Positions 45,484-56,004 of a DNA stretch of 64,000 nt are shown here, in pieces. The translations under genes and the position numbers were made by a program. Position 1 is the first letter of the stretch. Each line of letters opens with the position of its first letter. This DNA comes from Terriglobia bacterium. GTDB lineage: Bacteria > Acidobacteriota > UBA6911. The stretch lies in the NCBI GenBank assembly GCA_020072565.1, contig JAIQGI010000036.1, positions 1 through 64,000 of the forward strand, in the 5' to 3' direction. The notes under the pieces were generated by a model that was not told the DNA's origin, did not search any database, and saw only the letters and a list, made by a program, of their open reading frames with translations.

Positions 45484-45892
45484 TCCTACCTCTTTCAGGG
45501 GGCATCCAACCACCTGGCAGAGATTAGCCGGGTGGCGCTGTTACGTCAACTGCACATTCAATCCGCGGGTGATTCAAAGGCGAAAGCACTGCTCAAAAAC
45601 AATAGACTAACGTAGTGGACGCCGAGGGGTAGCGGAGAGCGCTGAGTTTGGAATCCCTGCAGTCAAAGCACCGGGTGCGCTGCTGTCCTCCGCGTCCGCT
45701 GCGACGAGCAGTTGAGGATCGAGGTGGTTTTTATGCTTATCGTAACGAATTGTCCAAAGCTGCGTATATCTTGTTGCTATCTCGCCTGATGCAAGTGGGG
45801 AATCCGGCCCCACTTGCTGCCGTAGCCGGCTTTTTAGTCAAAGTTCCCGGGAGGGTACCCGTCCAGGGAACATGGGAAATGAGAGAACCACT
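45484..45892. other. Intergenic leader of the TonB-receptor-like gene
   Basis: No gene seen. It must hold promoters for mqnD (minus) and for the receptor-like gene (plus). A strong hairpin with an adjoining small stem and T5 lies at 45791-45835 (listed separately). Confidence 0.5.
45791..45835 (+). promoter_or_regulatory. Leader hairpin, possible attenuator
   Basis: GCAAGTGGGG-aatccgg-CCCCACTTGC is a perfect 10-bp stem (45791-45817). GCCG-tagc-CGGC-TTTTT follows at 45819-45835 as a minimal terminator-like stem. They lie 58 bp before the receptor gene start. Could be an attenuator or a protein-binding site. Confidence 0.5.
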
Positions 45893-48800
45893 ATGAATGC
45901 TTCCACCTTTTGGCGCGGTCTTTTGCTCTCAAGCCTTCTCCTGGCGGTTTTTGCGTACGCCCAGGAACCGATATTGATCGCGGGTAAAGTGATCGATGCC
46001 AAAGGCGTGCCGATACCGGCAGCGACGGTCCGCCTCCTTGTGGGAGATCAGGTTCAGACGGAAACTCTCACTGACATCGATGGGTCATTTGCGTTCCAGG
46101 GGCTTGCGGCAGGTATCTATAAGCTTGGCATAGAAATGTCGGGTTTCCTGAAGGTGGACAAAGATGCGGTGGACACCACCATGGAGGCAAGCCGGAATCT
46201 GACAATCTCCCTGCAATCCACCCCACCGCCTCCCAGACCTCTGCGACCGGCCGCGGCGCGAACCGCTGCGGTGCAGAATCCCACAGGACAGCCCGCGGAG
46301 AACACCGCAGCGTTTCAGACCGTCCAGACCACAGATTTGCCTGGAATGCAATTATTTCAGCAGGATACCGCTCAAACTGCAGCTGAAGCGGCCACCATCC
46401 CACGCCAGGACAGCCTCCTTTTGATCAACGGCAACTCCGCGAGTCTGGATGCAGGCAATCTGGCTGATCCCGGCTTCCGCCAGCAGATGATGGACTCGGC
46501 CAGAATGATGGGTTTCCAATTGGATATGTTTGCGGGGGATGGCAGACAAGGGGGACCGGGTGGCCGTGGCGGCGATGCAGCGGGCTTCGGAGGAGCCGGT
46601 GGCGGTGGGGCGGGCGGTCGAGGCGGCGGTAGAGGTGGTGGTCCCGGCGGAGGCGGTGGCGGCTTTCGTATGGCTGGACCAGGAGGGCGCGGGGCCATTT
46701 TCCAGCAGCCGAAGATTCAGGGTAACGTTTCCGAAACCTTTAGTAATTCGGCATTGAATGCACGCGCGTATTCGCTGACCGGTCAGACGCTCACTAAGCC
46801 GGTTCAGATAGGAAATAACTACAATATTACCCTCGGTGGAGTGTTTCCTTTTATCAAGCCTCGGACGACTGCCGCCACGGGTGGGCGCGGCGGTGGTGGC
46901 GGCGGTGGCCGCGGAGGCGGTGGCCGCGGAGGATTAGGCGGCCAACCCGGGTGGACTTTTACCTACAGCGGCAGTCGAAACCGCAGTGCTCAGAATGTTC
47001 TTACAACGGTTCCAACGGATCTGGAGCGCTCGGGAGATTTCTCACAGAGCCTGGTCCAGGTGGTAGTGATCGACCCGATTACGGGACTGCGAACCACCGC
47101 GGTACAGCCTGTTCAGCTCTACCATAATCCAAATGATCCCTCATCGCTTTTCACGAAAGTCGATTCCATCGATCCGGTTGCGCGCGGATTGCTCTCATTC
47201 ATCCCAAGGCAAAACCTGCCGTGTCCGGTGAACCTCCCGTGTGTGAACAATTATGCCATTCAACGCAGCCTTCCTGGCACCTCTGACCAGATTCAGGGAA
47301 GCGTGAGCGGCTTGCGGCTCACTTCCAAGGACAGTCTTGCGGTCAACTATGCCATGCGCCGGGGCAGTTCTTTGAATAGCGCGATCTTTCCCGGCCTGGA
47401 TTCCACCCGAAGCAATTCTGCTCAGAATATAGGCATTTCCGGCACGCACATGTGGAAAGCACGCCTCATGTCGAACTGGCGGATCACGCTGAACCGTACC
47501 CGCACGGAAGGCACCAATGCTTTTGCCTACACTCAGGACGTGGAAGGTGCGCTCGGAATCACCGGTGTTTCCCGGGAGCCCATCAACTATGGGCCTCCTG
47601 CGATCAACCTCACCAACTATGGTGATCTGTCACTGGCCGCGCCTTCTCTCAACCGCAATCAGACGTTTACGGTTTCCAGCGGTCTCAACAGGATGGGATC
47701 CAAGCACAGCATTCAGATAGGCGGAGATATCAGCTGGCTCCAGCGCAATACGCACAGCGACAGCAATGCCCGCGGTACATTCACGTTCAACGGCTATGCC
47801 ACTGCGGGCCTTGACTCCCATGGGCGCCAGATTGCCGGGACCGGTAACGACTTCGCTGATTTTCTGCTCGGGTTGCCGTATTCCACATCGCGGCGTTATG
47901 CCGATCCCATCACGAATCCCTGGGGTAACGCCACCTATCTCAGAAACCGCACCTTCAGTCTTTATATCCAGGACAACTGGAGGGCGCGCTCCAATCTGAC
48001 GCTGAATCTGGGCTTGCGCTACGAGTACAACGGGCCTTCGTTTGAGAAATACAATCGTCTTGTCAGCCTGGATGCGGCTCCGGGTTTCACCTCCGTAGCG
48101 CAAGTATTTCCCGACCAGACCGGACCTCTGAGCGGCCAGTTTTTCTCCAGGTCACTTGTGAATCCGGACAGGCTCAACTTCGGCCCCCGCATCGGTATTG
48201 CCTGGAGGCCGACCGCGAGGTCCAGATTCGTGATCCGGACCGGCTACGGGCTGTTCAATGACAGTTCCGCTTATTCGTCTGTCGTCGGCCAGCTTGTGAA
48301 TCAGCCGCCGTTTGCCGTCACTCAAAACCTGCCCACCAGCCCATCGAATCCATTAACACTGCAAAACGGGTTCCCGACCAATCCCAGCATAACCATTCTC
48401 AACACATACGCGATCGACCCGAACTACAGGCCGGCCTATGTGCAGCAATGGAACTTCGATGTCCAGACCCAGATCTCGCGGCTCTATGTGTTAACCGTAA
48501 CCTATATGGGCTCCAAGGGGACGGGCCTCGGTATCATGCGGGCTCCCAATCGCACCGGCAACGCCGGCAACTTCACCTTCCAGACCAACGGCGGCAGTTC
48601 GATTCTGCATGCGGTCAACTTCCAACTGGTTCGCCGCTTTTCCCATGGCTTTAATGTTCAGAACCAATACACGCTGTCCAAGAGTGTCGATGATGTCCCC
48701 TCCGGGGTGGCGCAGAATGACGCCGACCTGGCTGCGGAGCGTGCTCTGAGCAGTCAGGATCAGCGGCACAACTTCCAAACCACCTTCAGCTATGAGCTCC

Positions 48801-49312
48801 CTATGGGCCAGAACCGGAGGTTTTTTGCGAGCGCCTCGCCCAAAGTGCTCAATTTCATCGCCGGCTGGAACATCAACGGCACCTTTACGCTTGGCAGCGG
48901 ATCGCCTATGACTGCGCGTTATACCGGCAGTGGCGGCAGTTCCAGCTCGGCGCTCTACAATTCATTGCGTGCAGACGCCACGGAAATTTCGCCTCTCATT
49001 CCCTGGGGTGACCGCACGCTCCTGGCTTTTTTTAATACCGCGGCCTTCGCCATTCCCTCGGGTTCCTATGGAAATGCCGGACGCAATACCATCACGGGTC
49101 CAGGAACCAACATGCTGAACCTTTCGATCCACAAAAACTTCCGCCTCGACGAGAACAACCGCAGGATTGATTTCAGCTGGCAGGTTCAGAATCTCCTCAA
49201 TCATCCCAATTGGGCAGGCGTGAGCACAACCATCAATGCGCTTAACTTCGGGCAAGTGACCGGTATCCGCCCGATGAGGTCGATGACTATGAATCTAAGG
49301 ATCAACTTCTAG
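45893..49312 (+). CDS. TonB-receptor-like outer-membrane protein with carboxypeptidase-regulatory domain
   Basis: An 1139-residue outer-membrane barrel protein. Signal peptide ends near AYAQ, then one carboxypeptidase-regulatory-type domain (IAGKVIDAKGVPIPAATVRLL...). Two Gly/Arg-rich stretches are at about 216-266 and 328-351. The rest is a long beta-barrel with many aromatic strand ends and ends in MRSMTMNLRINF, a proper C-terminal barrel signal. Acidobacteria carry many such receptor-like proteins for large substrates; I see no clear plug. The Gly-rich segments are unusual. The VWFA gene begins 11 bp after it. ATG 45872 is an alternative start. Confidence 0.85.
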   Translation: MNASTFWRGLLLSSLLLAVFAYAQEPILIAGKVIDAKGVPIPAATVRLLVGDQVQTETLTDIDGSFAFQGLAAGIYKLGIEMSGFLKVDKDAVDTTMEASRNLTISLQSTPPPPRPLRPAAARTAAVQNPTGQPAENTAAFQTVQTTDLPGMQLFQQDTAQTAAEAATIPRQDSLLLINGNSASLDAGNLADPGFRQQMMDSARMMGFQLDMFAGDGRQGGPGGRGGDAAGFGGAGGGGAGGRGGGRGGGPGGGGGGFRMAGPGGRGAIFQQPKIQGNVSETFSNSALNARAYSLTGQTLTKPVQIGNNYNITLGGVFPFIKPRTTAATGGRGGGGGGGRGGGGRGGLGGQPGWTFTYSGSRNRSAQNVLTTVPTDLERSGDFSQSLVQVVVIDPITGLRTTAVQPVQLYHNPNDPSSLFTKVDSIDPVARGLLSFIPRQNLPCPVNLPCVNNYAIQRSLPGTSDQIQGSVSGLRLTSKDSLAVNYAMRRGSSLNSAIFPGLDSTRSNSAQNIGISGTHMWKARLMSNWRITLNRTRTEGTNAFAYTQDVEGALGITGVSREPINYGPPAINLTNYGDLSLAAPSLNRNQTFTVSSGLNRMGSKHSIQIGGDISWLQRNTHSDSNARGTFTFNGYATAGLDSHGRQIAGTGNDFADFLLGLPYSTSRRYADPITNPWGNATYLRNRTFSLYIQDNWRARSNLTLNLGLRYEYNGPSFEKYNRLVSLDAAPGFTSVAQVFPDQTGPLSGQFFSRSLVNPDRLNFGPRIGIAWRPTARSRFVIRTGYGLFNDSSAYSSVVGQLVNQPPFAVTQNLPTSPSNPLTLQNGFPTNPSITILNTYAIDPNYRPAYVQQWNFDVQTQISRLYVLTVTYMGSKGTGLGIMRAPNRTGNAGNFTFQTNGGSSILHAVNFQLVRRFSHGFNVQNQYTLSKSVDDVPSGVAQNDADLAAERALSSQDQRHNFQTTFSYELPMGQNRRFFASASPKVLNFIAGWNINGTFTLGSGSPMTARYTGSGGSSSSALYNSLRADATEISPLIPWGDRTLLAFFNTAAFAIPSGSYGNAGRNTITGPGTNMLNLSIHKNFRLDENNRRIDFSWQVQNLLNHPNWAGVSTTINALNFGQVTGIRPMRSMTMNLRINF

Positions 49313-49323
49313 AGGCGCGAACC

Positions 49324-51651
49324 ATGTCCAATATCCGCCGGATGAGTGAACATAGAGTTAAATTAGGCCGACTGCCGCTTCTTTGTCTGGGATGCCTGCT
49401 TGGTACTATGGTGGTTCTGGCGTTTTCCCAAGCGCCGCAGCAACCCGTACAACCCGTCCGCACCCAGAGGCCGACTTTTCAAGTTGAATCCGACCTGGTG
49501 GTGGTCGACGTGACCGTCCGCGATCGGAAAGGGAACTTGCTTGGCGACCTCACGAAGAGCGATTTCAAGGTCTACGAAGACAATGTGCCCCAGGAGATCG
49601 TCACCTTTTCCGCAGAGAATGTGCCGGTCGGCCCCCAGCCGGCGGTGGTCGCGGCTCCCGGATCCCCAGAGACGACGAAACCGCCTGCTCCGGTCGTCAA
49701 CCTTGCGCTCAACCCTGACCAACCGCCGAAAAAGGAGGATCTGGAAGGCAAGAGGCTGGTCATATTATTCTTCGACCTGAGCTCGTTGGGAACGGAGGAT
49801 CTAATCCGCTCGGTGGATACGGCGCATGAGTTCATTGCCAAACAATCCGGCCCTCAGGATCTCATGGCGATCGCCACTTACAGCAGCGCATTGCAGCTTG
49901 TCCAGGATTTCACGAACGACCGCGATGTCTTGCTTAAAACTCTCGATGCGATCTCATCGCCCGATTCGGGAGATGCGGCGGTGGAAGATCTGAGTGACCC
50001 TGATACTTCCGACGATGTTTTTGTGCCCGACACCATGCAATTCAATATTTTCAATACCGACCGGCGGCTGTCCGCCCTGGAAACGCTGGCGAAAATGTAC
50101 CGTGAGTTTCCCGAGCGCAAATCGCTGCTCTATTTCTCGAGCGGCGTAACGACCACCGGTGTCGAGAACAATGCTCAGATCCGATCCACCGTGGACAATG
50201 CCAATCGTTCGAACATGTCCATCTACACTGTGGATAGCCGGGGGCTGGTTGCTCTGCCGCCCGGCGGAGGAGCGTCCGCGAGAAGCGCGGGCGGCAGGGG
50301 TATGTTCAGCGGCGCCGCCATGATGCGCCAGAGATCGAATCTCTCCAGTTCTCAGGAGACGCTGACGACACTGGCGCACGACACGGGCGGCCAGGCTTTT
50401 ACCGACTCGAACGACCTGAGCCTGGCCATCAAGCAGGTGCAAAACGACACGCATATTTACTACGTGGTGGGCTACTTCAGCACGAACGCGAAGGAGGATG
50501 GCAAATACCGCAAGATTCGAGTCGAAGTGACCCGACCCGACCTGAGGGTAGAGCACAGGCCGGGATATTTTGCATCGAAGGCCTTCGGCCAGCTCACCCA
50601 GCAGGAACGCGATCTGCAGCTTCAGCAGGCGATGAATGTGGACCGCCCCTTTGCGGATGTGCCGGTGATTCTGCAGGCCGATTATTTCCGGAAGGACAAC
50701 AGTACCACCCTCGTGCCGATCTCGATCGAGCTCGACGGCGATGGCCTGAAATTTGAAGACAAGGGCGCCAACAAGGAGGGCAAATTCGAATTTGTAGCGC
50801 AGGTTGCAGATCTCAAGGGAAGAGTCACCGGAGTGGCGCGGGATGCAGTTCAGGTGCGGCTCCCCGCGGAGAAGGCCGAAAGGATCAAGTCCGGAGGGAT
50901 TTTCTATTCGACCGGGTTTCAGCTCCGTCCCGGCGACTATAGGCTCAAGTTCCTGGTGCGCGACAATGGTACCGGGAAACTGGGAGGCTTCGAACAGCCG
51001 ATCAGCGTGCCGACGCTGGATCTCAAGAAGCTTGATACCAGCTCTATTGTGTTGGGCAGCCAGCTCATGAGTGCCAGGGGAGACGCCGGTTCGGGTGTTG
51101 CGCATCAGGGCATGATGCGGAGATTCCAGGAGCTTGGCATCGCGTACGATCCCCTTGTGATTGGCAACCGGAAGGTCGTGCCGAGCATCGGCAACGTCTT
51201 CCTTAATCGGCAAACCGTATACATCTTCTTCCAGGTGTATGGCGCGGCGGCGGACCCACAGTCCCAGAAGCCTTCCATCGAGACCTACTTGATGCTCCTC
51301 AAGGACAACACCAAAATCCTGGAGTCGCAGCCCGAACTGGTGCAGGACTGGACGAAGGAAACGGCGTTTACGGGATTTGGCGGCAGGGGAGGCGCGGGAT
51401 TCGGGGGACCCGGAGGCATGAGGGGCATGGGCCGCGGTGACAGGGGAGGCCAGGCAGCCGGGGCCAGGGGAGGCCAGGCAGCCGGGGCCAGGGGAGCACT
51501 GCCAACCGAGGACAGAAAAGGAGAGGCAACCGTCGCGATATCCCTGCCGTTGAAGAGTCTCAAGAAAGGCACCTACACTCTTCAGATCCACGTGCGGGAT
51601 ACGATCGCCGACGTAAACCTCTTCCGGCGTGTTCCTATCGTGATCCAGTAG
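49324..51651 (+). CDS. Secreted VWFA-domain protein, acidobacterial type
   Basis: A 775-residue secreted protein. Signal segment at about 18-36, then the typical domain start FQVESDLVVVDVTVRDRKGNLLGDLTKSDFKVYED, a VWA fold with RLVILFFDLSS as metal-site region, and a C-terminal beta-rich part. A Gly/Arg-rich linker (about 690-725) includes two exact 24-bp repeats (51441-51488). It follows the receptor gene by 11 bp, so they are expected to form one envelope unit. No enzyme motif is seen. Confidence 0.85.
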   Translation: MSNIRRMSEHRVKLGRLPLLCLGCLLGTMVVLAFSQAPQQPVQPVRTQRPTFQVESDLVVVDVTVRDRKGNLLGDLTKSDFKVYEDNVPQEIVTFSAENVPVGPQPAVVAAPGSPETTKPPAPVVNLALNPDQPPKKEDLEGKRLVILFFDLSSLGTEDLIRSVDTAHEFIAKQSGPQDLMAIATYSSALQLVQDFTNDRDVLLKTLDAISSPDSGDAAVEDLSDPDTSDDVFVPDTMQFNIFNTDRRLSALETLAKMYREFPERKSLLYFSSGVTTTGVENNAQIRSTVDNANRSNMSIYTVDSRGLVALPPGGGASARSAGGRGMFSGAAMMRQRSNLSSSQETLTTLAHDTGGQAFTDSNDLSLAIKQVQNDTHIYYVVGYFSTNAKEDGKYRKIRVEVTRPDLRVEHRPGYFASKAFGQLTQQERDLQLQQAMNVDRPFADVPVILQADYFRKDNSTTLVPISIELDGDGLKFEDKGANKEGKFEFVAQVADLKGRVTGVARDAVQVRLPAEKAERIKSGGIFYSTGFQLRPGDYRLKFLVRDNGTGKLGGFEQPISVPTLDLKKLDTSSIVLGSQLMSARGDAGSGVAHQGMMRRFQELGIAYDPLVIGNRKVVPSIGNVFLNRQTVYIFFQVYGAAADPQSQKPSIETYLMLLKDNTKILESQPELVQDWTKETAFTGFGGRGGAGFGGPGGMRGMGRGDRGGQAAGARGGQAAGARGALPTEDRKGEATVAISLPLKSLKKGTYTLQIHVRDTIADVNLFRRVPIVIQ
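51441..51488 (+). repeat. Two 24-bp tandem repeats within the VWFA gene
   Basis: CAGGGGAGGCCAGGCAGCCG-type units at 51441-51464 and 51465-51488 are identical and in frame (they encode RGGQAAGA twice); half of a third unit follows. Copy number could vary between strains. Confidence 0.85.
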
Positions 51652-51759: not shown

Positions 51760-53460
51760 TCACTGATGCGGGGCGTGATACCAACCGAGCACCGCGAGGT
51801 GCGTCCGATCGTCAGCGTAGCCTAGGACAACCTCAACCGGCAGAGCTTGGGCATTTCCACTGCTGCCGGCCTGGATGACCAGGCGTGCAACCGGAATCCG
51901 ACCGTAACGATCGGGCTTGACACCGGGCCCTCCGTCCTTCAGCGTTACGCCCGGCACGTCCACGTATTGTTGTCCCTGCGGGTTAAGGAGATCGGCTGCC
52001 AGTCTCCTGCCGTCAGCATTCTCCAGCCGGATTCGGTATATGCGGTTGTCCAGGAGAGCGTATCCGCGCTCAACTGCCAGATCCCGGAACGATAGCCGGT
52101 AATTCGAGCCGTCTTGCGCCAGAGCAAATCCCTCGAGAGGCGTAATCCTGTCAAACCAGTATCGGCCGATCGCGTCGCGACGTTTCTTGAGCACGTCGGC
52201 GATGTACCGGGTGACTTCAGGGCGCGTGTATTCCCCGGCCTCAGCCAGGCGTCGAATCGTATCATCGGTGAACGCGGTAACGATCTTGGCCCCCCAGTAG
52301 GCGTCGGAGTCGTCCATCCGCTCAAAGGAAAGATTCGGATAGTTGGGCTTCCATGCGGCCGGATCGAAGAGTTCTGCCTGGAAATAGCCGACCTCCGGAT
52401 AAGGAATCTCGCCGCGCACGTCCCAGGGCCTCCGCCAGGTGCCGAGTGTGACAAAAGATTTGCCGATTGCAGACCCGTCAAAGATGTACTCGTGCCCCAC
52501 CCGGTAGGGGCCGTTGATGAAGTCGCCGCTGCCCATGGTCGAGCCGAAATCGAGCAGGTAGTGACGGACGTACCCGCGCCCATCCTGGCCGGCGATGAAC
52601 ACATCGAGAGCGTTCTTGTCGCCTACGTCGACATGATTGATCCAGGAGGCAATTACCCGCAGCCCGCGCAACTCACGCCGCAGCTCATGAGGTATCAAAT
52701 CGTTCGGATCATCTTTTCTCCGCCCCGTATAGACGAAGCGACCGACAGCCGGGCCGGAAAGATAGAGACTGGCCAGGCCGCGGTACCTGCCATCGGGCAT
52801 TGGCTTGAGTTTTTGAATGAGTGACTCAAATACCTGGGGTGTCAGAGGCTGCTTTTTGCCGAGCGCATCGGTATATTTCGCCTTCTCGCCCAACCGCAGA
52901 TCCTCGCGACGGAAATAAACGATGCTGTTGTGCGGGACGTTGTAACCGGCCGCGTGCATGATTAGAGTGCAGATGCGCTCGGCAGCCGAGTTGCGTTCGA
53001 GTGCGGCCGGCAGGTCGAATTTCAGGACGTACGTGCGACCTGCACCGTCGGCCACGTCGATCTTTGGCGTGTAGCCCTCATCGCCGATTTTTGTGACCGT
53101 CCAGGTTCCGGGCTTTGGGGTCTCACCCTCGAGCCCGGCTTCTATTTCCGTGAATGACAGTGATCTCAGTCCCATCCGATTGGCGAACCAGCTGGAACCG
53201 GGGACTTCGTCCCAGGCATTTACATTCAGAGCCCCGGGATCGGCGGCACGAGAAGCCTGGTATTCCGGGCTTAAATGACGCAGCCAGGTGTTGTATAGGA
53301 TGGCATGGATCTCCGAAACCTGGCGTTCCCTGGGCTTGCTGATGGCGGATTGATCATGGTCGGTCTGTAGCGGCGGGCGCAGTCTCAGTTTCGAACCGGC
53401 CGAAACGGCCGCAGGCAACAAAGCCGCCAGAGCCCAGACCAACACCCTGCGCACCTTCAT
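51760..53460 (-). CDS. Secreted protein with protein-kinase-like motifs
   Basis: A 566-residue protein with a signal peptide (MKVRRVLVWALAALLPAAVSA). Its middle part shows the landmarks of a protein-kinase or HipA/FAM20-like fold: YVLKFD with Lys147, a helix with Glu161 (AAERICTLIMHAAGY), HVDVGDKN (H276, D278, N283, spacing as in HRDxxxxN), and DFG at 304-306 in HYLLDFGSTMG. I do not know a named family with this layout, so the role is open; phosphorylation of an envelope target is a real possibility. Start ATG 53460 overlaps the stop of the upstream Omp85-like gene (ATGA), so they are co-translated. Confidence 0.65.
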   Translation of the reverse strand: MKVRRVLVWALAALLPAAVSAGSKLRLRPPLQTDHDQSAISKPRERQVSEIHAILYNTWLRHLSPEYQASRAADPGALNVNAWDEVPGSSWFANRMGLRSLSFTEIEAGLEGETPKPGTWTVTKIGDEGYTPKIDVADGAGRTYVLKFDLPAALERNSAAERICTLIMHAAGYNVPHNSIVYFRREDLRLGEKAKYTDALGKKQPLTPQVFESLIQKLKPMPDGRYRGLASLYLSGPAVGRFVYTGRRKDDPNDLIPHELRRELRGLRVIASWINHVDVGDKNALDVFIAGQDGRGYVRHYLLDFGSTMGSGDFINGPYRVGHEYIFDGSAIGKSFVTLGTWRRPWDVRGEIPYPEVGYFQAELFDPAAWKPNYPNLSFERMDDSDAYWGAKIVTAFTDDTIRRLAEAGEYTRPEVTRYIADVLKKRRDAIGRYWFDRITPLEGFALAQDGSNYRLSFRDLAVERGYALLDNRIYRIRLENADGRRLAADLLNPQGQQYVDVPGVTLKDGGPGVKPDRYGRIPVARLVIQAGSSGNAQALPVEVVLGYADDRTHLAVLGWYHAPHQ

Positions 53461-54764
53461 CGCTTGTAGGCTCCGTAGCGAATCGGGCCCCACAGCGGTG
53501 GTCGCACCCGATCGCCGAAAGAAACGTGGAACTGAAAGCCTTCGCTGCTGTGGCCAAACTCGACGCGCACTACCGTGCCTTTATCAACCCCTGCACGGTA
53601 GCGAAATGCGAGGCCGTAATTCCGGTGCCAGTTCAGCCAGGTCAGATCGGAGGTTTGGTCGAAAATCTGGCCTTCATCGAAGAAAGGAATTGCCTGGAGA
53701 TTAGGATGCAGACGGTAGCGGTACTCCAGGGAAAGCAGGAAGAGGTTGGTGCCGTAAAAGCGATCCAGTCGAAAGCCGCGCAAGGTCGATGAGCCGCCGA
53801 TATGCGGCAAGAGATAAAATGGGATCGGATCGCTGTTGGCGCTTCTGCGAGTGAACTCGAGGTTGGCCTGACCGACAAGTGCGCTGCGCTCCGAAGCCAG
53901 GGGCAGCCGCCCCTCCATCTGGATTTCATAGCTGTAATATTTGAGGAGGTTGCTCCTTCCAAGCCCCTTCTGGTAGGAGGCGCCCAGATGAAGAGAGCCT
54001 CCGAGCTGATACTCTCTGCGGAGGGCATTCAAGGCTAGATACGTGCCCACGCTTTGCAGCCTGGTCTGGGTACCGAAGCCGGGAAGATTCGGGAAGTACA
54101 CGTCGGGTGATGAAAATGCCGGATTTGTTCCCGGGAGTGCCGTCAGCCAGGCCCACTTGTATTCGGTGCCGGCCTGCACCCATCGAACCGGAACAACTTC
54201 GTATCGCACACCGGTCCAGGTCTGGCGCAGGGCAAAGTTGGTGCGCTGGCCCTCCAGCGAGCTGTGCCCCAGCCCGTAGAAATTCTCTTGTGGCCGCCAT
54301 TGGTATGAACCCTCGAGATACAGCTTGCTCGGCCCCAGAACCTCCGCCACGGACAGATCGAACTCTTCGTAGTTCGTGGTCGTGATGTTCAGATCCATGC
54401 GGAACTGGCTCTTCTTCTCTGCCCCAGCCAAGTATGTGAGCCCGCCTCCGAAGCCGGTTCCTTCTCCCGTTCCTCCGAACACAGGCAGGATCCCGCGCCT
54501 GCGCAACGCGTCGAGATATATTTGCCAGCGCTCCCGCAGGCGGTGCTTTTCCACACTGATGAGGCCGCGTTCCATTCCGGAGGAAATAAGGTGATGAGGA
54601 TAGGAGATTATGTGGAGGGGCAACAGCCAACCGGGCTGCGCAGCTTTCTTGACCTCTTCCTGTGTGACGATTCTCTCGTCCTGTCCCGGCAGACTCTGAG
54701 CGCATGCCAGCGCCAGAAGCCAGGTCACGAAGATCGGAAGAATTTTGCGTCGGCCCTTCATCAT
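53457..54764 (-). CDS. Omp85/BamA-type surface-antigen barrel protein
   Basis: A 435-residue outer-membrane protein. Signal segment (RKILPIFVTWLLALACAQSLPG), then a barrel with regular aromatic strand ends and the Omp85-type motif IGGSSTLRGFRLDRFYG, followed by FDEGQIFDQ and the last strand VRVEFGHSSEGFQFHVSFGDRVR. No POTRA domains are visible before the barrel, so it is a short patatin-like-type or stand-alone barrel. ATG 54764 (or 54761) is set at the start of the signal segment. The kinase-like gene follows in an ATGA overlap. Confidence 0.8.
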   Translation of the reverse strand: MMKGRRKILPIFVTWLLALACAQSLPGQDERIVTQEEVKKAAQPGWLLPLHIISYPHHLISSGMERGLISVEKHRLRERWQIYLDALRRRGILPVFGGTGEGTGFGGGLTYLAGAEKKSQFRMDLNITTTNYEEFDLSVAEVLGPSKLYLEGSYQWRPQENFYGLGHSSLEGQRTNFALRQTWTGVRYEVVPVRWVQAGTEYKWAWLTALPGTNPAFSSPDVYFPNLPGFGTQTRLQSVGTYLALNALRREYQLGGSLHLGASYQKGLGRSNLLKYYSYEIQMEGRLPLASERSALVGQANLEFTRRSANSDPIPFYLLPHIGGSSTLRGFRLDRFYGTNLFLLSLEYRYRLHPNLQAIPFFDEGQIFDQTSDLTWLNWHRNYGLAFRYRAGVDKGTVVRVEFGHSSEGFQFHVSFGDRVRPPLWGPIRYGAYKR

Positions 54765-55070: not shown

Positions 55071-55179
55071 GTCGAAACCCTGATTGAATTTCGGGCGGGA
55101 GAAGGCTTATCATCATGACGAGCACCAGCGGAAAAGCCGACAGAGGCACTGTGCGTCGGTCTGGTTGCACGGAGGTGCC

Positions 55180-56004
55180 ATGAAAAAAGCATGCGCTATT
55201 CTTGTGAGCCTCCTCCTTGCCAGCACGGCTTTTGCTGGTTTCAGAGTCAAGTTGGTAAAGCCGAAAAAGCCCGAACAATTTCAGACTCGCCTGACGGTCG
55301 GCGAAGTCACTTATGCCGCTGACCTGGTCATCGACGGGAAGGAACAGAAGAGCTACTTCTATAAGGAGTTGATACCGGCTCACGTCGTCGCCCTTCGTCT
55401 TGCCATCTTCAACCGGGAACACCGTGAGGTGATGCTGCCGCTGGAACGATTGCAGCTGGTGGATCCTTCGGGTCGAGAGGTTGCATTGGTGGCGCCGGAC
55501 GCGGTAGCGCAAGCGGTTCTCAAAGGTCTGGTGGTCACGGCGGAAGCCCGGGATCAGAGTCCGGTGGGAGTTGCCCCGAGGCTTGATCCCCGGATCGATC
55601 CGAATGATCCACGTAACGATCCGAACGATCCCAGATATCGGCGCTATCCTCCTGTCGACCCCCGTACGGACCCTCGGAACACCGACCCTCGCTACGATCC
55701 GAACGACCCCCGATACCGGCGTTATCCCAATGGGACCTATGGGCCGTATATCCGCTCGGGAGTTGACATCGTCCTGGTCCCGGGTGCCGGTGGTGGTGCA
55801 GGTGATCTTTCTCAACATGAGAAGGCGCTGGTCGAAAAGGATTTTGCCGACAAGGCCCATTCACTGGAGCCTGTGCCTCCTCTATCCGGGCGTGACAAGT
55901 TCCTCTATTTTGCTGTTACCGAGAAGCCTGCGGGTGCGAAAGGTTTTACTCTGATCCTGCCGCAGGCGAAGGGTATGCCCACAGTGGTTGTCCTCAAGTT
56001 CTAG
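55180..56004 (+). CDS. Secreted protein with DPNDPR repeats
   Basis: A 274-residue protein with a signal peptide (MKKACAILVSLLLASTAFAG). The first domain (about 25-125) is beta-rich. A low-complexity segment (about 137-188) repeats DPNDPR, DPRTDPR and RYRRYP. A C-terminal beta-rich part follows. Asp-rich repeats of this type can bind calcium, though no strict calcium motif is present. The start is fixed by GGAGG five bases before ATG 55180. No family recognised. Confidence 0.65.
   Translation: MKKACAILVSLLLASTAFAGFRVKLVKPKKPEQFQTRLTVGEVTYAADLVIDGKEQKSYFYKELIPAHVVALRLAIFNREHREVMLPLERLQLVDPSGREVALVAPDAVAQAVLKGLVVTAEARDQSPVGVAPRLDPRIDPNDPRNDPNDPRYRRYPPVDPRTDPRNTDPRYDPNDPRYRRYPNGTYGPYIRSGVDIVLVPGAGGGAGDLSQHEKALVEKDFADKAHSLEPVPPLSGRDKFLYFAVTEKPAGAKGFTLILPQAKGMPTVVVLKF

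Follow-up and report, generated by a model that had tools for sequence, protein, structure and literature searches.

An exported protein with a predicted protein-kinase-like fold is encoded in tandem with an Omp85-type β-barrel in the window (the whole 64,000-nucleotide stretch analysed here, from the genome of a soil-type Acidobacteriota bacterium). At least three bacterial phyla retain the two genes side by side, a sign of a kinase module of the outer membrane that appears undescribed. We lean, at slightly better than an even chance, towards a two-subunit complex of the outer membrane, with a kinase-fold enzyme that the barrel keeps on the periplasmic side and that would act on a lipid or glycan of the envelope. 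The pair and its parts are as follows.

53457..54764, minus strand: barrel open reading frame, upstream gene of the pair (435 amino acids, then TGA at 53457-53459)
53514..54482, minus strand: predicted β-barrel domain, residues ~95-417 (extent of conservation in homologues, Omp85 matches)
53772..53783, minus strand: LRGF motif, residues 328-331, the Omp85 loop-6 signature (conservation in 25 barrels)
53457..53460, minus strand: ATGA, overlap of the barrel stop and kinase start (read from the sequence)
51760..53460, minus strand: kinase-like open reading frame, exported protein (566 amino acids and stop; AlphaFold and Foldseek)
53398..53460, minus strand: predicted type I signal peptide, residues 1-21, cleavage past VSA (sequence and model)
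53176..53226, minus strand: non-catalytic conserved motif NVNAWDEVPGSSWFANR, residues 79-95 (conservation in 83 members)
52138..53178, minus strand: predicted kinase-fold core, residues 95-441 (separate model and Foldseek)
53020..53022, minus strand: K147, ATP-lysine position in β3 (K in 66 of 79 non-pseudokinase members)
52978..52980, minus strand: E161, C-helix acid (E in 41, D in 31 of 79)
52666..52713, minus strand: DDPNDLIPHELRRELR, residues 250-265, the family's most conserved motif (conservation in 83 members)
52612..52629, minus strand: catalytic loop D278-x4-N283 (D in 75, N in 76 of 79; absent from the pseudokinase subgroup)
52543..52551, minus strand: DFG, residues 304-306, metal-binding motif (D304 in 78, G306 in 73 of 79)
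51763..52137, minus strand: predicted C-terminal β-sandwich, FN3/Ig-like, residues 442-566 (strand-rich in the model)

A sequence-only reading had singled out this pair for its kinase motifs and for the start codon of the kinase-like gene, which overlaps the stop of a short Omp85-type barrel gene. The motifs lie exactly where it placed them (K147 in YVLKFD, E161, HVDVGDKN with D278 and N283, and the DFG at 304-306), and the ATGA is indeed shared by both frames, an arrangement likely to couple translation of the two genes. Clusters of antisense open reading frames around the pair were discarded as artefacts. Divergent from the pair (55174-56001, plus strand) lies a gene for a small secreted protein that contains a stretch of DPNDPRYRRYP-type repeats and has no match in Pfam; convergent with it (45872-51651, plus strand) is one for a large protein of outer-membrane type whose start is carboxypeptidase-regulatory-like, after which comes a VWA-type secreted protein with a weak VWA_2 match.

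The upstream protein has an Omp85 barrel domain with the RGF/Y loop-6 motif. It matches Pfam PF01103 above the curated cut-off (E 5.2e-7) and NCBIfam Omp85_fam over residues 321-417 (E 2.3e-18), here under that model's own cut-off; PF01103 is also matched by 24 of 25 barrel homologues, and in the LRGF motif of the 25 barrels R329 is invariant and G330 nearly so. POTRA domains are a usual, not a universal, criterion of the superfamily. Since POTRA models gave no match in the 25 barrels at E up to 0.5, and only ~70 residues lie between the signal peptide and the barrel domain, we regard the protein as a POTRA-less Omp85 barrel. The window pair gave no patatin match and is not fused as in PlpD. 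The window's phylum also holds a second subfamily of short Omp85-like barrels (L133-L139, for example L133:4006-5142) in kinase-free neighbourhoods.

The downstream protein was modelled by AlphaFold with high confidence, both whole (pLDDT 91.2, pTM 0.92) and as the core of residues 95-441 alone (pLDDT 91.5, pTM 0.92). Its signal peptide reads MKVRRVLVWALAALLPAAVSA, cut before G, and appears in the model as a helix over residues 2-14 followed by low confidence at 19-22. With the whole protein as query, Foldseek returned Fam20C/Fam20A, Rio2 and PI3K, plus monobody/FN3 matches that are owed to the C-terminal domain and were gone once residues 442-566 were removed. Because the extra domains depressed the full-length TM values (~0.3), the core-only model was made, and nearly all of the 50 matches listed for it are kinase-fold proteins: CtkA (E 1.6e-5), Hydra Fam20 (3.2e-5), Golgi casein kinase (3.6e-5), Rio2 (2e-4), PI4KII-alpha (5e-4) and HipA (7.6e-4). 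A confident model and these matches support the two-lobed kinase-like fold that the motifs had suggested; CtkA, Fam20 and HipA are among the most similar structures solved. TM-scores against solved kinases are modest, reaching at most 0.53 (target-normalised, core), and the protein therefore looks like a new branch of the kinase fold, outside the families matched.

Profile comparisons also point towards HipA-like kinases. Pfam HipA_C touches the window protein at residues 129-185 below threshold (E 0.0066, 16.6 bits against a cut-off of 30.5); among 57 homologues, HipA_2 is matched by 13 (best E 8e-4) and HipA_C by two (best E 8e-5), and neither model scored over its curated cut-off. In hhalign, the family aligns with HipA_2, a profile built from two sequences (93.6%, P 2e-7), and with HipA_C (59%, P 9e-5); K147, D278 and D304 line up with the former's catalytic residues, K147 and D-x4-N with the latter's, and a reversed-profile control gave 0.1%. 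We take this as remote homology in which the catalytic positions correspond. The family could not be aligned with a second HipA-like type, L125 (hhalign 0.3%). The Fam20 model PF06702 matched none of 57 members at E up to 0.05 and nothing across the window's phylum, where the controls were equally silent, so that the phylum-wide negative is no proof of absence. Sequence searches of the PDB, single-query and profile, gave no meaningful match for the pair, a plasmid collection gave none, and neither NCBIfam nor PHROGs matched the kinase-like protein; the family has no name in Pfam or NCBIfam.

The family set comprises 83 sequences, 79 in a main family plus a distant pseudokinase subgroup. Conservation of the four catalytic positions, on which the kinase assignment had been made to depend, holds in the main family (K147 in 66, or 84%; D278 in 75, N283 in 76 and D304 in 78 of the 79, with an acid at position 161 in 72) and fails in a few pseudokinase members: the catalytic residues are lost in the distant subgroup (L101, L102, L103, L107) and in the scattered members L052 and L053, and are partly degraded in L075. 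Thirteen of the 79 have E, Q, S, T, R or A instead of K147. The seven members with E at this position (L022, L029, L032, L036, L042, L049, L073) all have K126, a residue widespread in the family, and one may speculate about a WNK-like shift of the ATP lysine. Invariant in 83 of 83, pseudokinases included, are the non-catalytic residues N81, D251, N253, D254, H258, R262, R265, D386, W389 and R427. Within motif 79-95, E85, P87 and W91 are nearly invariant and mostly retained in the distant pseudokinases, as R95 is not. The catalytically degraded proteins (L101, L102, L103, L107, L052, L053) still have the barrel beside them, so the barrel partnership needs no catalysis; this retention and the non-catalytic invariants suggest a structural role alongside the enzymatic one.

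Among 396 genomes of the window's phylum (Acidobacteriota), 60 carry a kinase-family gene, as do 20 of 189 in a Myxococcota-type set (the phylum of a Sandaracinaceae record) and two of 100 in a Nitrospirota-type set (the phylum of a Thermodesulfovibrionia record). Residues and pairing alike persist in ~80 homologues across these three phyla and are thus not due to chance. A survey of whether the barrel always accompanies the kinase found that it almost always does: in shared genomes a barrel stands beside 43 of 45 kinase places, and a kinase beside 43 of 48 strong barrel places. In the window's phylum it lies directly upstream in every locus whose upstream DNA extends for ~370 bp or more; Myxococcota-type loci have it on either side, upstream or downstream, and at L082, L085 and L097 of that set none was detected within 1.5 kb. 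Among the exceptions to the counts are some contig fragments, L131, which has a divergent kinase-like lipoprotein, and the apparently lone barrels L130 and L132. The barrel tree closely follows the kinase tree (r 0.925 at n 68, against a permutation maximum of 0.265), a correlation to which shared species history contributes. Apart from the two genes themselves, none is conserved at all of the loci. Export signals vary by lineage, a signal peptide in the window's phylum and a lipobox in most Myxococcota-type homologues, two predicted routes into one compartment. Long GC-rich frames that seemed to fuse a barrel with a kinase (L004, L027 and others) were dismissed as open by chance. L100:181-2928 is a true in-frame joining of the first half of a barrel and a kinase (916 amino acids), which may be a local deletion.

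At eight loci in three phyla (L003, L040, L044, L048, L055, L056, L091, L100), about a tenth of the total, a gene for a PAP2-superfamily phosphatase lies directly downstream of the kinase gene, on its strand:

L003:6557-7120, same strand as the pair: PAP2 gene
L040:7035-7847, same strand: PAP2 gene
L044:7054-7962, same strand: PAP2 gene
L055:3950-4819, same strand: PAP2 gene
L056:6725-7747, same strand: PAP2 gene
L091:410-1279, same strand: PAP2 gene
L100:2990-4090, same strand: PAP2 gene

None was seen beside the window pair. The 11 genomes tested carry one to six PAP2 genes each, and the single one found in G037 is the kinase neighbour. PAP2 enzymes are typically lipid phosphatases. One member of the superfamily, LpxT, transfers phosphate in the periplasm without ATP, with undecaprenyl pyrophosphate as donor (PMC2229476).

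A compact exported kinase-like relative of ~330 residues (P0003) is present in 37 of 297 genomes of the window's phylum, including the window's own (G000:C22:61309-62202; L160:4304-5404). It aligns with the window family by profile (99.6%, P 6e-25), had no match in Pfam for the member tested and mostly has no barrel neighbour. All 24 of 24 sequences retain the lysine, two acids of the C-helix region, the D of the catalytic loop and D-x-G. An exported kinase clan larger than the window gene follows from this relative and its retained catalytic residues. L131:5583-6551 encodes another member of the compact exported kinase-like family.

How the two proteins might work together can be proposed in outline. 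The POTRA-less barrel would sit in the outer membrane, and the exported protein would attach to its periplasmic face by a conserved surface that is not catalytic, for which NVNxxxEVPxSSW and DDPNDxxxHxxRRxLR are candidate motifs, so standing in for POTRA domains. Most members would be working phosphotransferases with a protein-kinase-like fold and a HipA/CtkA/Fam20-type catalytic site, phosphorylating an envelope lipid or glycan at the outer membrane or en route into it, a step that the PAP2 phosphatase of some lineages might reverse or feed. Since ATP is scarce outside the cytoplasm, the phosphate may come from an unusual donor or from extracellular ATP; we know of no ATP source in the periplasm, which counts against such a complex. 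A lipid or glycan substrate would agree with fold neighbours such as the lipid kinase PI4KII-alpha and the family of Fam20B, a glycan kinase that phosphorylates xylose (PMC7948968), and in PlpD, which has been studied, an Omp85 barrel is combined with an enzyme domain that is periplasmic and acts on lipids (PMC11116518). The near-constant adjacency, the mirrored trees and the presence of the catalytic D, N and D in ~95% or more of the 79 members argue for the complex; the pseudokinases that retain the barrel, the TM-scores of at most 0.53 and the partial PAP2 link argue against it.

Three other explanations have to be weighed. The barrel could be a dedicated exporter that carries the kinase-like protein to the cell surface or medium in the style of two-partner secretion, so that the kinase acts outside. 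Omp85/TpsB barrels such as FhaC do export partners encoded next door, the pair here is equally tight, three barrels show a weak resemblance to ShlB/FhaC (best E 0.042), and extracellular ATP can occur in soil. Yet TpsB transporters bind their substrate through POTRA domains (PMC9355242), and none was found in these barrels; the partner is predicted to be a compact globular kinase fold instead of a β-helical TpsA as in type Vb systems; Myxococcota-type members are mostly lipoproteins; and the patatin domain of PlpD, once believed to be exported, is periplasmic (PMC11116518). We consider export unlikely. Of the suggested tie to an outer-membrane transporter, the tie itself recurs in three phyla and has no description in the open-licence literature; a transport function of this POTRA-less barrel would be putative.

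It is about equally improbable that the kinase fold is mainly non-catalytic, serving as the barrel's plug, gate, chaperone or ligand sensor and binding a nucleotide or a phosphorylated ligand, and that it transfers phosphate only as a side activity or not at all. Periplasmic ATP is scarce, the most conserved residues are non-catalytic and are kept with the barrel by pseudokinases, and K147 is replaced in the 13 main-family members noted above. However, D278, N283 and D304 persist in 75 to 78 of 79 proteins across three phyla, and the compact relative keeps its catalytic set throughout, the pattern expected of selection on catalysis. That barrel and kinase are independent and merely co-expressed, for example as an assembly factor and a free periplasmic enzyme, seems very improbable: compact relatives usually live without an adjoining barrel and the strong barrels L130 and L132 without a nearby kinase, but adjacency is near-obligate in three phyla, multi-copy genomes included, gene order is mostly fixed, and no further gene shares this conservation.

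Each part has a known fold, and the combination of barrel and exported kinase appears undescribed: open-licence papers yielded no account of an Omp85-kinase pair, and novelty is provisional because the literature search was limited to them. The fuller proposal of an undescribed, widespread two-subunit outer-membrane kinase, in which a separate kinase has been swapped in for POTRA, possibly ATP-free and sometimes PAP2-partnered, we put forward tentatively, as somewhat short of an even chance. Few cases of phosphorylation beyond the cytoplasm of bacteria are documented, and where the phosphate comes from has yet to be settled; a conserved unit of barrel and kinase, shared by genomes of Acidobacteriota, Myxococcota and Nitrospirota type, would provide a concrete enzyme for testing. 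If the proposal is true, the roles of Omp85 barrels widen past protein insertion and export, and a gene family unnamed in Pfam and NCBIfam gains a role.

Several known systems share features with the pair. CotH kinases are likewise kinase-fold enzymes that work outside the cytoplasm in bacteria (PMC7821199), but they belong to the Gram-positive spore coat, have no barrel and are missing among the fold matches listed. Fam20A/B/C are secretory-compartment kinases, matched in Foldseek by Hydra Fam20 and Golgi casein kinase, and both families include pseudokinases, Fam20A being one (PMC7948968); the window family differs in being bacterial and barrel-linked and in having no detectable sequence relation to Fam20. 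The Omp85 "noNterm" subfamily (Heinz and Lithgow 2014), compared by description only, resembles the barrel in having no N-terminal domains, and the survey that covers such barrels makes no mention of kinases (PMC4104836). PlpD (type Vd) also ties an Omp85 barrel to an enzyme, with an enzyme domain that is periplasmic and affects membrane lipids (PMC11116518), but as one polypeptide with POTRA and lipase, whereas the window pair has two genes, no POTRA and a kinase fold. HipA-like kinases (HipA_C PF07804, HipA_2 PF20613 and H. pylori CtkA) are alike in motif order and spacing (a G-rich strand, K in hKF, D-x4-N and D-hydrophobic-G), in profile match, and in fold, CtkA and HipA standing near the top of the Foldseek list. 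Unlike them, the window family falls below the Pfam cut-offs, is exported, and has a conserved N-terminal region of ~100 residues, a DDPND-H-RR-LR motif, a C-terminal FN3-like domain and a barrel partner.
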